The translations under genes and the position numbers were made by a program. Below are positions 9,894-14,645 of a stretch of 55,653 bases of DNA, piece by piece. The DNA lies in the NCBI GenBank assembly GCA_027315245.1, contig DAHUYK010000033.1, positions 1 to 55,653 of the forward strand, in the 5' to 3' direction. The notes under the pieces are model-generated. The model was not told where the DNA came from. It worked only from the letters and a program-made list of their open reading frames with translations, and ran no database searches. The DNA comes from Vulcanimicrobiota bacterium (GTDB taxonomy: Bacteria; Vulcanimicrobiota; Vulcanimicrobiia; Vulcanimicrobiales; Vulcanimicrobiaceae). Position 1 is the stretch's first letter, and every line of letters starts with the position of its first letter.

Positions 9894-12800
9894 TTACGAA
9901 AACAGCGCCTCGATATCGTTCATGCCGAGGTCCAGCGTGCCGCTCGATGCTTCTTCAAAGAGGCCCGCTGCGAGCGCGCCTTTACGTTCCTGCAACTCGA
10001 GGATGCGTTCTTCGACGGTTCCTTCGGCAATGAGCTTGTAAACGAACACGCGCTGTGTTTGGCCGATGCGATGCGCCCTGTCCGTCGCTTGCCGTTCCAC
10101 CGCCGGATTCCACCAAGGATCGTAGTGGATGACGGTATCGGCGGCGGTCAGATTCAAGCCTGTTCCCCCGGCCTTGAGGCTGATGAGGAAGAGCGGCGTC
10201 TCGCCACGCTGGAACTGCGCTACCGGCGTCTCACGGTCGCGTGTGTCGCCGCGAAGCTCGACGAACGGCTGCCCGCGCTTTTGCAGCTCGGGCTTGATAA
10301 GATCGAGCATCGACGTAAACTGTGAAAAGAGCAGGATGCGCCGCCCGTCTTCCACCAAGCTGTCGAGCATCTCGAGCAGAGCTTCGAGCTTCTGCGACTC
10401 CTCGACGTTCTGCGCAGCCGCCACCTTCAGCAGCCGCGGATCACAGCACACCTGACGCAGTTTCAGAAGCGCATCGAGTACGACGATGCGGCTGCGCGCC
10501 AAGCCTCGCTTCGACACCTCGTCTCGAACCCGCTTGTGCATAGCGGTACGAATGGTTTCATACAGGTCACGCTGCGCTCCCGACAGCTCGATGCGTTGCA
10601 CGATCTCGCTCTTCTCGGGTAGCTCCAGCGCGACGTTCTCTTTCGTGCGACGCAGGAAAAACGGCTTGATGCGAGCGGCGAGAGCACGCCGGCGTTCGTT
10701 GTCGCCGCGCGTTTCGATGGGTGCACGGAAGACCCGCGCGAAGCGCGTGCGATCGGAGAGCAATCCTGGCACCGTCGCGTTGTAGAGCGACCACAGCTCC
10801 TCGAGATGGTTTTCGACCGGCGTACCCGTTAGCGCAATCCGCTGGCCGGCTTGGATGCGGAGCGCAGCCGCCGCGCCTTTGGAGCGAGGATTCTTGATCG
10901 CCTGCGCCTCGTCCAGCACGAACATCGACCACTCGCGCTCCTCGAGTTCATGGATGTCGCGCTGCAGAAGCGCATAGCTCGTCAACGCGATGTCGGCGTC
11001 GTCAATCTCGGGAAAGCGCGCGGCACGCTCTTTCCCGGTGAGCGTTACGACGCGTGCACTCGGCAAGAAGCGTGCAATCTCGGCGCGCCAGTTCGGAACG
11101 ACGCTCGTCGGCGCCACAACGAGCACGGGTGCGCCGCGCCGGTTGCGCGGTCGTTCTATAGCAACGTGCGCGAGCAGTTGAACGGTCTTGCCAAGGCCCA
11201 TGTCGTCGGCAAGAATGCCGCCGAATCCGTGCCGCCGCAGCATTTGCAGCCATGCGACGCCGTCACGCTGGTAGCCGCGAAGCGTCGCCTTGAAGCGCTT
11301 CGGGATAACAAGGCGCTGCTGCGACTGCGCCGTGAGATCCTCGACGAGTGCGCGCAACGGCTCCGCATTATTCCAGCGAACGGCAATGCCGTCCATCCCC
11401 CAGAGCGACGCTGCGCGCAACGCCGGCATGCGCATGCGCTCGTCGCCGGCCTCTGCATCGGATTCACCGAAGAGCACGCCGATGGTTGCAAGCACGCGAG
11501 CAACGCGTGCCGCAGGAAGCTCGACGAGCATCCCGCTCTCCAGTTTTCCGAGCAGCGGCGCGGTGCGCCTGGCAATCGTCTGCGGGTCCGTGGCAACGGT
11601 GTAGCCTTCGCGATCGAGCGCATCGAGCAGTAAGGGAATGAGCGAGACCCGCTGCCCGTTGACGTCGATGCCAAGCTCGAACTCGAACCACTGCGTGCTG
11701 TCGGTCTCGATGACGTCCGCGTACCATTCTCCGTCTGCCTGCGCGATCGCAAACGGAAAGGACCGGTCGACCTCCACACGCCAGCCTTCGAGTGCGAGCG
11801 CGGCTCGCGCGCCGCGGAAAAACTTGAGCCAGCGGTCGTCGTCGTAAGCGTAGGTGAGAACGACGCGTTCCCGTTCCACTTCGTACGGCCAACGCAAATC
11901 CGTCAAGCCTTCCTTCTGCAGTCGCGCAAGCGCAGCGTGCTCGAACGAAAAGCGCCGTGCCCAGACGGTGACCCGCTCGCCTTGCGTCGTTTGAAACTCT
12001 TGTATCGGTTCGCCGGGATTCACCACGTGATCGCCGTACACAAACGAAAGCTCCGCGACCGCGCGACGGGGATCATACGGATTGGCACGTGGGTTATTCA
12101 TCGAAAAGAGCCGCAAAAGTGGTATCGGGTTCGCATCGATAGCCTCCACTTCCACGTTCGCAGCCGGAGCATCGATGGCGCCGGGCGTGAAAACGTGACG
12201 CAGTGACACGTACGCGCGTTCGGCCTGTGCCGGAGAAAGCGCCGGCGATCGTGCGATCATCGCCACGATGGGCGCTGGCGCCTCGACGCGCGCGATGCCG
12301 GCCACATGGTTCTCGGGATCGACATACCATAACGGCACGCTCGGCAACAGTATCGTTGAGGGTCGCCCGTCGAGATGTGGCCGCTGCCGGCCCCTGGCGT
12401 CGAGGCTCCACGTTATGTGGGCGGAATCGAGGGCCTGATTCCGCAGCACCGGATCGCTGGCGAAGCGCCAGTGCAGCCGCTGCGTTCGCATGAGGATTTC
12501 GAGGAGCGCGCCAACGAGGGTCGGCGAAAATGCGCGTCCGAGGTCGTCGGCCAACCCGGCCGCTTCTGCGAGCTGGCCGATCGTGCGATCGATCGGCGTC
12601 GTAGCGTTGTGATGGCCGAATGCGACGTTGCGTACCTCGTAAGGGCGTGGCGTTCCACGCTCGCCGCTTTTGCGGATCGCGCCGATGAAGGCGCTGAGCG
12701 TCAGTGTCGGCGTGTACGGGGCCGGCTGCAGATCGATGGCGTAACGAATGTGTTCCCGTGACTCCAGGGCCTGCGTTATCAGTGTCTGCTCGTACTGCTC

Positions 12801-13142
12801 GCGAAGCTCTTGGATCCACATCTCGACCGCCCCGCTGCCGGCTTCCGCGTCCGGCGCGGCGTCGTCTTCGGCAATGGCAAAGGCGGCAGCGGCAACGTGC
12901 TTACAATTGTGACGCACCGGACACGAGCACGTTCCGCTGACCCCTGCTACCCCGCGCGCGCGAGACTTACGAAGGAGCACGGAGTACGGATGCTGCCGCG
13001 AACCGCTGACGAGCGCCGCGACGCTGTCGGCCTCGTGCGTCGGGCCCACACGAAGCACGTGCCCCAACTTGTAGTAGCGGTATCCCCGATCGATGGTCGA
13101 CGCGTCGAACGAACGCTCGATCTCGGAACGGTCGATCGTCAC
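9894..13142 (-). CDS. SWIM-domain SNF2-family helicase
   Basis: A 1082-residue DNA/RNA translocase. An N-terminal SWIM zinc finger has ligands C72, C74, C80 and H82 (CxC-x5-CxH). A long middle region of unknown fold (about 110-610) follows, then the SNF2 core: Walker A DDMGLGKT at 646-653, DEAQ box at 744-747, helicase-C with FSQFTSMLDLI and a final AHRIGQTQRVFVYKL block. This architecture is a common bacterial SWIM-SNF2 protein that remodels nucleoprotein or RNA polymerase complexes; the precise role is not known. The GTG start at 13142 lies seven bases from a palindromic element, so its promoter may lie in or beyond that element. Downstream is the phosphatase gene. Confidence 0.93.
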   Translation of the reverse strand: MTIDRSEIERSFDASTIDRGYRYYKLGHVLRVGPTHEADSVAALVSGSRQHPYSVLLRKSRARGVAGVSGTCSCPVRHNCKHVAAAAFAIAEDDAAPDAEAGSGAVEMWIQELREQYEQTLITQALESREHIRYAIDLQPAPYTPTLTLSAFIGAIRKSGERGTPRPYEVRNVAFGHHNATTPIDRTIGQLAEAAGLADDLGRAFSPTLVGALLEILMRTQRLHWRFASDPVLRNQALDSAHITWSLDARGRQRPHLDGRPSTILLPSVPLWYVDPENHVAGIARVEAPAPIVAMIARSPALSPAQAERAYVSLRHVFTPGAIDAPAANVEVEAIDANPIPLLRLFSMNNPRANPYDPRRAVAELSFVYGDHVVNPGEPIQEFQTTQGERVTVWARRFSFEHAALARLQKEGLTDLRWPYEVERERVVLTYAYDDDRWLKFFRGARAALALEGWRVEVDRSFPFAIAQADGEWYADVIETDSTQWFEFELGIDVNGQRVSLIPLLLDALDREGYTVATDPQTIARRTAPLLGKLESGMLVELPAARVARVLATIGVLFGESDAEAGDERMRMPALRAASLWGMDGIAVRWNNAEPLRALVEDLTAQSQQRLVIPKRFKATLRGYQRDGVAWLQMLRRHGFGGILADDMGLGKTVQLLAHVAIERPRNRRGAPVLVVAPTSVVPNWRAEIARFLPSARVVTLTGKERAARFPEIDDADIALTSYALLQRDIHELEEREWSMFVLDEAQAIKNPRSKGAAAALRIQAGQRIALTGTPVENHLEELWSLYNATVPGLLSDRTRFARVFRAPIETRGDNERRRALAARIKPFFLRRTKENVALELPEKSEIVQRIELSGAQRDLYETIRTAMHKRVRDEVSKRGLARSRIVVLDALLKLRQVCCDPRLLKVAAAQNVEESQKLEALLEMLDSLVEDGRRILLFSQFTSMLDLIKPELQKRGQPFVELRGDTRDRETPVAQFQRGETPLFLISLKAGGTGLNLTAADTVIHYDPWWNPAVERQATDRAHRIGQTQRVFVYKLIAEGTVEERILELQERKGALAAGLFEEASSGTLDLGMNDIEALFS

Positions 13143-13148
13143 GCGTTA

Positions 13149-13319
13149 CCTAGGAGCCTGTAGGGTTATGGCACATTTCCGTCTTTGGGCCGCCTTTTAT
13201 CCGAATACTTCGTTGCTCATCGGTCATGAAGCTACGGCTTCACTCCCTCTTCGCGCCTTGCCTCCGAACAAAATGCGGCACCAAGTCCGAAAACGGCCAT
13301 AACCCTACAGGCTCCTAGG
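13149..13319. mobile_element. 171-bp MITE-like palindromic element
   Basis: Perfect 24-base terminal inverted repeats (CCTAGGAGCCTGTAGGGTTA...) occupy 13149-13172 and 13296-13319. The arms continue as imperfect inverted repeats for roughly 35 more bases, and the exact centre is a small palindrome, TGAAGC-TACG-GCTTCA, at 13227-13242. The whole unit could therefore fold into one long hairpin. CTAG abuts both ends of GAGCCTG...CAGGCTC, which could be a 4-bp target duplication of an IS5-like element. It has no coding capacity and its base composition is less GC-rich than its surroundings. It fills the entire space between the S41 and SNF2 genes and supplies the last codons and the stop of the S41 gene. 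No second copy is present in the window. Confidence 0.75.
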
Positions 13320-14645
13320 CAGGGCCGCGATCTTCTTCTGGAGGTACGTCACGGCTGCGCGCAGCTGTGCGTCGTGGCTAAGCTCACCGAAGTGCGCTCC
13401 ACGATTTTCATCGACGGCGAAGTCCGGCTCGATGCCGCGCAGATTGATGTCGCGGTGTCGCGGCGTTAGGTAATGGGCGGTCGTAATCTTGATCGCGGCA
13501 CCGTCAGGCAGCTCGGTGAGCGTCTGCATGACACCCTTGCCGAAGGTTTTCGTTCCCATGAGCGTCGCTGCGCCGTCGTCTTGCAGCGCCCCGGCGGTGA
13601 TCTCCGATGCCGATGCCGTGTATGCGTTCACGAGCACGGTCATCGGCAGCGCCACTTGACCTTCGTTGTCGGAGTCGATGGTCGTGTCGCGAGTCCCCCG
13701 CTCCTCGACCGTGAGGATGGGTTGCTTTCCAACGAAGTGCGAGCTGATGTCGAGCGCGGAGTCCACGTATCCGCCGGTATCGTTGCGCAGGTCCAGCACG
13801 AGCGCGCGTGCACCCTGCTCGCGCAGCCGCTGCAGTGCGACGTCGAACTCATCGGGTGTCGCGCGCCCGAATGCGATCACCCACACGTAGCCGATGTCGC
13901 CCGGAAGCATCTTGAAGACGACCGTCGGCGGCTGTACCTCCGAGCGTGTGATCGTCACCGTGTGCCCTGCGGAGGTCGCGGTCGCCGCAAGCTCCACGCT
14001 CACCTGCGTTCCTGCTTTCCCGCGCAACAGCGTGCTGACGCCGTCGACGGTCAGACCGCGCGCCGACGTACCGTCGACCGCGATGATGAGATCGCCTTCA
14101 CGCAAGCCAGCGCGATCGGCCGGCGTGTTGGGAAGCACGTACGAGATGCGGATGTACGGCGAATCCTGCTCGACGAGCACGCCGATACCCGAGATACGCT
14201 GCGGGTCGAGCGCATCGTTGAACTGCCGGTATTCATCGGGCGTCATGAAGACGGTGTAGCGGTCGCCGAACGCGGATGCCATGCCACGCATCGCCGCATA
14301 CGCGTAGTCGGTTGCGTTGCCGCGAGCGTTTGCCGCGGCCGACTCGATCTCTTCGTCGAGATCGTTGAGCGCCCGAACGTCGTCGCCGTTGTCGGTGACG
14401 GGAGGGGGCGAGAACGCCGCCGAGCCGTGGCGATGCGCGTAGTCGACGAGCGCGGCGCGTGCGGCATCGAAGATCTGCTGCGCGTCGACTTGTTTGTATG
14501 CCGTCGTCTCGAGCAGATGGAACGTCTCTCCCACGTCCTGCGCCGTTGCAGCCGGCAACTCCGTTTGCGCGGAGATCGGATTCGAGGCGGCGGCAACGAG
14601 CAAAGCGAAGGCGGCGCAGGAAACGCGCCGTGAAAGTACGTGCAT
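13305..14645 (-). CDS. S41-family C-terminal-processing peptidase
   Basis: A 446-residue exported serine protease of the CtpA/Tsp type. A signal peptide spans about 1-26. An N-terminal helical region (30-145) precedes a PDZ domain (about 150-235, with GIGVLVEQ and AGLREGDLIIAVDG). The S41 core has the dyad Ser345 (TASASEI) and Lys370 (KTFGK), 25 residues apart as in E. coli Tsp. It would process or degrade periplasmic proteins by their C-termini. The ATG at 14645 has TACTCT seven bases upstream and no Shine-Dalgarno, so it is probably leaderless. The last residues PRSL and the TAG stop are encoded inside the palindromic element, so the original C-terminus has been replaced. Confidence 0.93.
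   Translation of the reverse strand: MHVLSRRVSCAAFALLVAAASNPISAQTELPAATAQDVGETFHLLETTAYKQVDAQQIFDAARAALVDYAHRHGSAAFSPPPVTDNGDDVRALNDLDEEIESAAANARGNATDYAYAAMRGMASAFGDRYTVFMTPDEYRQFNDALDPQRISGIGVLVEQDSPYIRISYVLPNTPADRAGLREGDLIIAVDGTSARGLTVDGVSTLLRGKAGTQVSVELAATATSAGHTVTITRSEVQPPTVVFKMLPGDIGYVWVIAFGRATPDEFDVALQRLREQGARALVLDLRNDTGGYVDSALDISSHFVGKQPILTVEERGTRDTTIDSDNEGQVALPMTVLVNAYTASASEITAGALQDDGAATLMGTKTFGKGVMQTLTELPDGAAIKITTAHYLTPRHRDINLRGIEPDFAVDENRGAHFGELSHDAQLRAAVTYLQKKIAALPRSL

Follow-up and report, generated by a model that had tools for sequence, protein, structure and literature searches.

What kind of element is the palindrome that separates an S41-family protease gene from its neighbour in a Vulcanimicrobiota bacterium, and which part of it is inherited as it spreads? 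It occupies positions 13149–13319 of the window (the whole stretch of DNA that was analysed, 55,653 nt), and a preliminary description offered two readings of it: a non-autonomous (MITE) derivative of an IS5-like element, or a structure-forming repeat. The analysis indicates that the two readings hold together, although 'IS5-like', while close, is too narrow. The element is very probably a non-autonomous mobile palindrome that targets CTAG and is moved in trans, and that has a structured core more widely conserved than its ends.

Form, site and copies of the element

The 171 bp include one flanking base at each end, and the distance from CTAG to CTAG is 169 bp. The left terminal inverted repeat, CCTAGGAGCCTGTAGGGTTATGGC (13149–13172, plus strand), has a perfect copy as its right counterpart (13296–13319, minus strand), and direct reading confirms the perfect complementarity of these outer 24 bases. 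The longer, imperfect arms described earlier (13149–13203 and 13265–13319) are 82% complementary across 55 nt, and the central palindrome is indeed a hairpin at the midpoint (TGAAGC-TACG-GCTTCA, 13227–13242). CTAG is present at both ends as reported (13150–13153 and 13315–13318); we take these as the two copies of a target-site duplication, on the evidence of the joined flanks and of other copies of the element. The claim that the element can fold as a hairpin is borne out by RNA folds of −81.6 kcal/mol for the plus strand (z −10.9) and −106.6 kcal/mol for the minus strand (z −13.1), none of 200 shuffles being as good in either case. No Rfam 15 family matched either strand of 13000–13450 up to E 10, no ORF of at least 80 aa lies inside the 171-bp element, and a promoter and terminator scan found none, nor any terminator-like site.

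The element had been said to fill an intergenic gap. It is a real element, but the ORF of the protease gene (an S41-family C-terminal processing protease, 13305–14645, minus strand) enters it by 15 bases and stops inside it, with its last codons and stop now belonging to the insertion. When the flanks are joined at one CTAG, the protease (minus strand) ends in KKIAALPR*, comparable with KKIASLPR* in two relatives (G002 and G004) and KIAVAPR* in a third (G003), R* being the ending in six of nine; with the element present, it continues to ...PRSL*. Thus, at this one site, there is CTAG on both sides, and the flanks rebuild the protease end of relatives, in which, among those compared, the protease site is empty. 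The neighbouring gene differs in relatives, so the comparison is valid for the protease side alone. On the other side lies a 1082-aa ORF (9894–13142, minus strand), which we take from its motifs to be an SNF2-type helicase; in the joined site it begins 3 bases past the S41 stop, and the hairpin has therefore separated two tightly packed genes. Downstream of the S41 gene of G002 (L120:1200–1400), a tRNA-like sequence is accompanied by a short, tandem-like repeat, AGCTTGTCGTAGCGAGCCGTC.

The host genome is a 2.12-Mb metagenome-assembled genome (MAG) in 169 contigs, 96% complete, and contains 14 full or near-full copies of the element (93–100% identity) as well as fragments. Matches were found in 13 of 60 relatives, with up to 16 in a single one. 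Wherever a copy in the host genome has both ends, its borders are CTAG, some with an additional C/G. The element is thus mobile, and it has the usual attributes of a MITE: it is short, lacks coding capacity, has terminal inverted repeats and is dispersed in near-identical copies. An attempt to refute the preliminary description by the absence of other copies, or of related insertion sequence (IS) ends, failed, as copies are numerous in the genome and in relatives and related ends exist.

Shortened derivatives are also present, of 114 bp at C124, 46 bp in G002, 37 bp in G007 and 23 bp in G013, and those looked at in the host genome are all mutually different. Several remnants of about 23–46 bp (L047, L163:1996–2032, L166:2987–3009, L029:1760 and L030:2270) lack the core and keep both ends, and give the impression that a deletion between the arms removed the middle. 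In viral contigs, 14 stretches contain the 16-base end, but no paired full element was seen in the contexts inspected (except for two close inverted ends in L220), and the core pattern was not found there; plasmids gave no match. Ends of the CTAGGAGCCTGTCGGGGTT type surround other interiors in records from Lautropia, Billgrantia and Oceanospirillaceae (L201:59–333, L199:6084–6155 and L205:2209–2445).

The core and its changing ends

The central 51 nt (13208–13258, the GA-rich structured strand being the minus strand) are a conserved module that occurs in elements with many different ends. Of 149 genomes from the phylum, 58 contain the core as found by a model (R1) of the central 56 nt with E up to 1e-4, and these 58 belong to a single order (56 in the same family and two in another family of that order). 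Inverted repeats lie at a near-constant distance of 51–65 nt from the core in 44 of 62 core loci, the 44 being those with an inverted repeat score of at least 11 at 45–70 nt, and the 18 dropped including elements with two cores. The elements so defined are 160–182 bp long (median 167), and their ends fall into 13 similarity clusters; the input to clustering differed slightly (no L055), again with 44 loci kept, and clusters were linked at 0.75, shuffled ends reaching 0.78 at most. Between clusters, identity is 0.79 in the core, 0.44 in the adjoining 25 nt and 0.48 in the ends (the last being the best of four comparisons, against 0.42 for shuffled ends in a single comparison); the corresponding values within clusters are 0.87, 0.73 and 0.77.

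A further group of elements in the host genome itself carries the ends CTAGTGGCCTGTAACATCC, and elsewhere the core is found between CTAGCACGCTGCGGAAAAA (G024), AGTGCGCCCCTTGCAGAGTAGCGCAACA (G008), CTAGTGTGCTGAATCATAATTG (G094), CTAATGCGCCGCGCCGTACGTC (G086) and TAGCGCTCCGATTCAGGGGTTC (G096). The ends of a set in G036, CTAGGGAAGCTCTGAAGAAG, are one base of 20 away from an end of an IS5_4 element discussed below (L103). Cluster A contains intermediate forms (L306 is probably a variant of it), and in many clusters the first bases of the ends are CTAG or close to it (TAG, TTAG, CTAA). Six genomes (G060, G036, G064, G065, G070 and G071; loci L350–L358) have two cores head to head, inverted and about 108 nt apart, and these double-core elements have yet other ends, such as TTAGTGGCCTGTAACACCC in L353.

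The GA-rich strand of the core can pair into a ladder made up of tandem G·A motifs and covarying Watson–Crick pairs. On the minus strand, the apical hairpin, TGAAGC-CGTA-GCTTCA (13227–13242), covaries; it is flanked on its 5′ side (13244–13252) by GA at 13251–13252, 13248–13249 and 13244–13245, and on its 3′ side (13217–13225) by GA at 13217–13218, 13220–13221 and 13224–13225. At these dinucleotides the two sides of the core are not complementary, and the Watson–Crick pairs between them covary. Tandem 5′-GA/5′-GA steps form stable sheared pairs in RNA and DNA. In an alignment of 55 of the 90 cores, from which near-duplicates, off-register sequences and chance hits were left out by eye, the three GA/GA dinucleotides are present on both sides in 52, 53 and 51 sequences, and all three together in 48; a fourth such motif occurs in 12 of the 55. 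Across 13 pairs, 93.7% of 715 cells are paired (the cells count sequences, not events, so that related copies inflate the counts), and 10 of the 13 change on both sides; pair 9–40, for example, is A-T in 25 sequences, G-C in 13 and T-A in 11. The covariation value is 0.354, against 0.153 for shuffles (0 of 500) and a maximum of 0.096 when slid, and the six outer pairs alone, without the apical hairpin, give 0.292 against 0.111. The ladder does not appear with DNA parameters, under which the single-stranded core folds weakly on either strand (z about −1.8), and the counts of 18 G·T and 10 A·C cells leave strand polarity unclear. Repair templated by the opposite arm can homogenize palindromes and could also yield such compensations, but it ought then to have removed the GA/GA mismatches too, and these persist. 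We read this as a structured MITE core dressed by several transposon ends, with a function that we infer.

The most serious alternative, and one that we hold to be plausible though short of an even prospect, is an ordinary MITE derived from IS5/IS1182, in which the centre is passive, the core being inherited from one old element while the ends drift with their transposases. The CTAG-like beginnings shared by so many clusters, the intermediates within cluster A and the existence of deletion derivatives without the core are all in keeping with this. A passive centre should, however, lose similarity no more slowly than the ends, yet between clusters the core retains 79% identity where the adjoining 25 nt retain 44%; nor would passivity lead one to expect tandem GA motifs that are near-invariant while the pairs between them covary.

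Stop codons, target and transposase

An ORF next to the element takes its in-frame stop from the TAG of a border CTAG in 25 of 53 copies. The 53 comprise 13 of the 14 copies in the host genome (L009 was omitted, its left end being cut by a contig end) and 40 loci (several being partial copies) in seven further genomes, and the ORFs were assigned mechanically (at least 90 aa, longest non-overlapping). Among 82 background CTAGs of the same loci, only five are stop codons, 62 lie within ORFs and 15 between them (Fisher p 5e-8). Against the non-disruptive CTAGs alone (5 of 20), the excess is not significant (p 0.11), and so targeting need not be its cause; harmful insertions may instead have been lost. 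The host genome considered separately has nine of 13 copies at stop codons, compared with six of the 23 CTAGs of the window outside the element, which form stop codons of predicted ORFs (p 0.017); six of the nine genes concerned have Pfam matches, including ClpX, MoaA, MGMT and cysteine dioxygenase. The copy in the window, for its part, does not coincide with a stop codon. Most simply read, the pattern reflects a CTAG target combined with the loss of insertions that break genes. The position at stop codons also shows how an element that targets CTAG can find room in gene-dense genomes and leave proteins intact. CTAG occurs 25 times in the window, against 42 expected from trinucleotides.

It might be supposed from this position that the element serves the host, as a 3′ RNA structure (a terminator, or a processing or stabilizing hairpin) behind stop codons, and both the great stability of the RNA fold and the frequency of copies at stop codons would suit such a role. 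Of the 25 copies at stop codons, though, 24 were scored (L290, which has genes to its left and right, was dropped): 14 are sense and 10 antisense with respect to the gene, i.e. there is no orientation bias, although one strand alone forms the ladder; and there is neither a terminator-like site nor an element at the protease site of the relatives compared. We therefore regard service to the host as unlikely.

Which transposase might move the element? Model searches of the host genome (an incomplete MAG, and MAGs often lose repeats) found no DDE_3, DUF4096, DUF772 or IS1182 transposase, and because no autonomous element with shared ends was found there, we use the label 'MITE-like'. More widely, DUF4096 occurs in two of 37 genomes (not in the host genome) and DUF772 in 11 of 60, and none of 32 loci scanned (30 DUF772 and two DUF4096) has the exact end motifs searched for. 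There are nevertheless relatives in which DUF772/DDE transposases, of both IS5 and IS1182 type, are flanked by similar ends. In the same genus, a 1226-bp IS of G007 (L228) has ends CTAGGAGTTTGCTGAAAAAC / CTAGGAGTTCGCTGAAAAGC and a 359-aa transposase that scores 264.8 bits with IS5_4 and 204.8, under the cut-off, with IS1182; the first 11 bases of the G007 IS (CTAGGAGTTTG) are the end of a copy of the element in G007. In the same family, a disrupted IS1182 gene is enclosed by CTGGGAGCCCGTAGG and CTAGGAGTTTGTCGACTTTGAGC in a 1542-bp stretch of G026 (L223). The ends of a 1253-bp IS5_4 element of G002 (L103) begin CTAGGGAAGCTCTGA. Finally, in a Spirochaetes MAG (L190), the 19 bases CTAGGAGCCTGTCGGGGTT, one of the end forms among copies in relatives, lie about 128 bases from the C-terminal part of an IS1182 transposase (76 bits across 73 positions), which makes a shortened fragment in another phylum the only place where the exact end of this wider family was found beside a transposase. 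A search for the complete IS to which the CTAGGAGCCCGTCGGGG ends of G024 belong did not find it, the contigs stopping about 50 bases inside it. Several contigs of that genome (L151–L160, L171–L181) end about 50 bases inside CTAGGAGCCCGTCGGGGTT, and a left end runs to ...TATAGTGTAAGCAATGA; from contigs that end inside the repeat, it seems that the body of a multicopy IS is missing from the assembly.

The IS5/IS1182 group is expected at CTAG/YTAR, with a duplication of 2–4 bp, and this is the pattern found here. From the like-ended transposases of relatives, together with published IS5/IS1182 MITEs, the group appears to be the best candidate for a partner, and the candidate autonomous element would be a whole IS with CTAGGAGCCTGTAGGG ends. 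A MITE of the IS630/Tc1-mariner type, with a TA duplication inside CTAG, would fit the joined-flank site equally well, and IS630 favours TA in CTAG; an IS630 partner was rejected in view of the absence of DDE_3 from the host genome, and with like-ended transposases belonging to the IS5/IS1182 group we consider this origin very improbable. Hairpins in inverted order, and the two head-to-head cores per element of some relatives, might suggest a REPIN-like element mobilized by a RAYT (Y1) transposase, but the duplicated borders of CTAG and the length and perfection of the terminal repeats make this scarcely credible.

For the CTAG-targeting MITE-like element that we favour, we suggest that a DDE transposase of the IS5/IS1182 group (DUF772 + DDE_Tnp_1) would bind the ends in trans, cut at the border and insert the element into CTAG with a 4-bp duplication (or into the TA within it). 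As CTAG contains TAG, the duplication would rebuild a stop codon on either side, so that insertions at stop codons would leave proteins whole and survive. A folded single strand of the core (ssDNA or RNA) may then aid the element's own propagation, which would explain how the core is kept while the ends, and hence the mobilizing transposase, change. Action of the core in cis for spreading is the interpretation that we prefer to host service or passivity. It is conceivable, if rather doubtful, that what is inherited as a unit is the folded core and not the ends: a cis-acting module that has been given the terminal repeats of about a dozen transposon types across one order, some elements having two cores. 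It would then be a satellite of insertion sequences whose nucleic-acid structure is functional. The customary view of MITEs is that they are inert remnants recognized by their terminal sequences. In this case the termini vary and the middle is conserved, and a folded single strand, as the easiest explanation of the covariation, would point to a structured element riding on several transposases.

Comparison with known elements

As judged by titles and the openings of abstracts, the literature searches made here listed no paper on MITEs of Eremiobacterota or on one MITE core under unrelated ends. Among described elements, MITEPsy1 of Pseudomonas syringae pv. phaseolicola is likewise small and non-autonomous and has a CTAG target: in the available part of its description it inserts into CTAG or YTAA with a 4-nt duplication, is listed as 'IS5?' and transposes in vivo (PMC3189936). 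It differs in length (100 nt, against about 170 here) and in its ends, GGAAGGTCTGAAAAAGCC (PMC3189936). Target CTAG is also given, in the portion seen, for ISPsy32 (PMC8027508), and an IS1182-family insertion sequence with 4-bp repeats is among those listed in the part available of PMC3281130. Two MITEs of ISMac2 (IS1182 family) in Methanosarcina acetivorans resemble the present element in length and copy number; according to the accessible text they are 160 and 169 bp long, in 14 and seven copies, with repeats of 25–26 bp and, in one of them, a 4-bp duplication (PMC3852290). They belong to another domain of life, and the likeness is one of description (PMC3852290). QMITE2 of Coxiella burnetii has terminal repeats, a core and a stable RNA fold of the whole element, but its direct repeats are of 7–9 bp, and one core under different ends is unmentioned in the part of the review that was available (PMC10969869). 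Insertion sequences of the IS5_4 and IS1182 types (NCBIfam NF033581, NF033551) encode a transposase, unlike our element, and their inner sequence is unrelated as far as seen, but they share with it ends that start with CTAG followed by related bases, and the family of organisms in which they occur.
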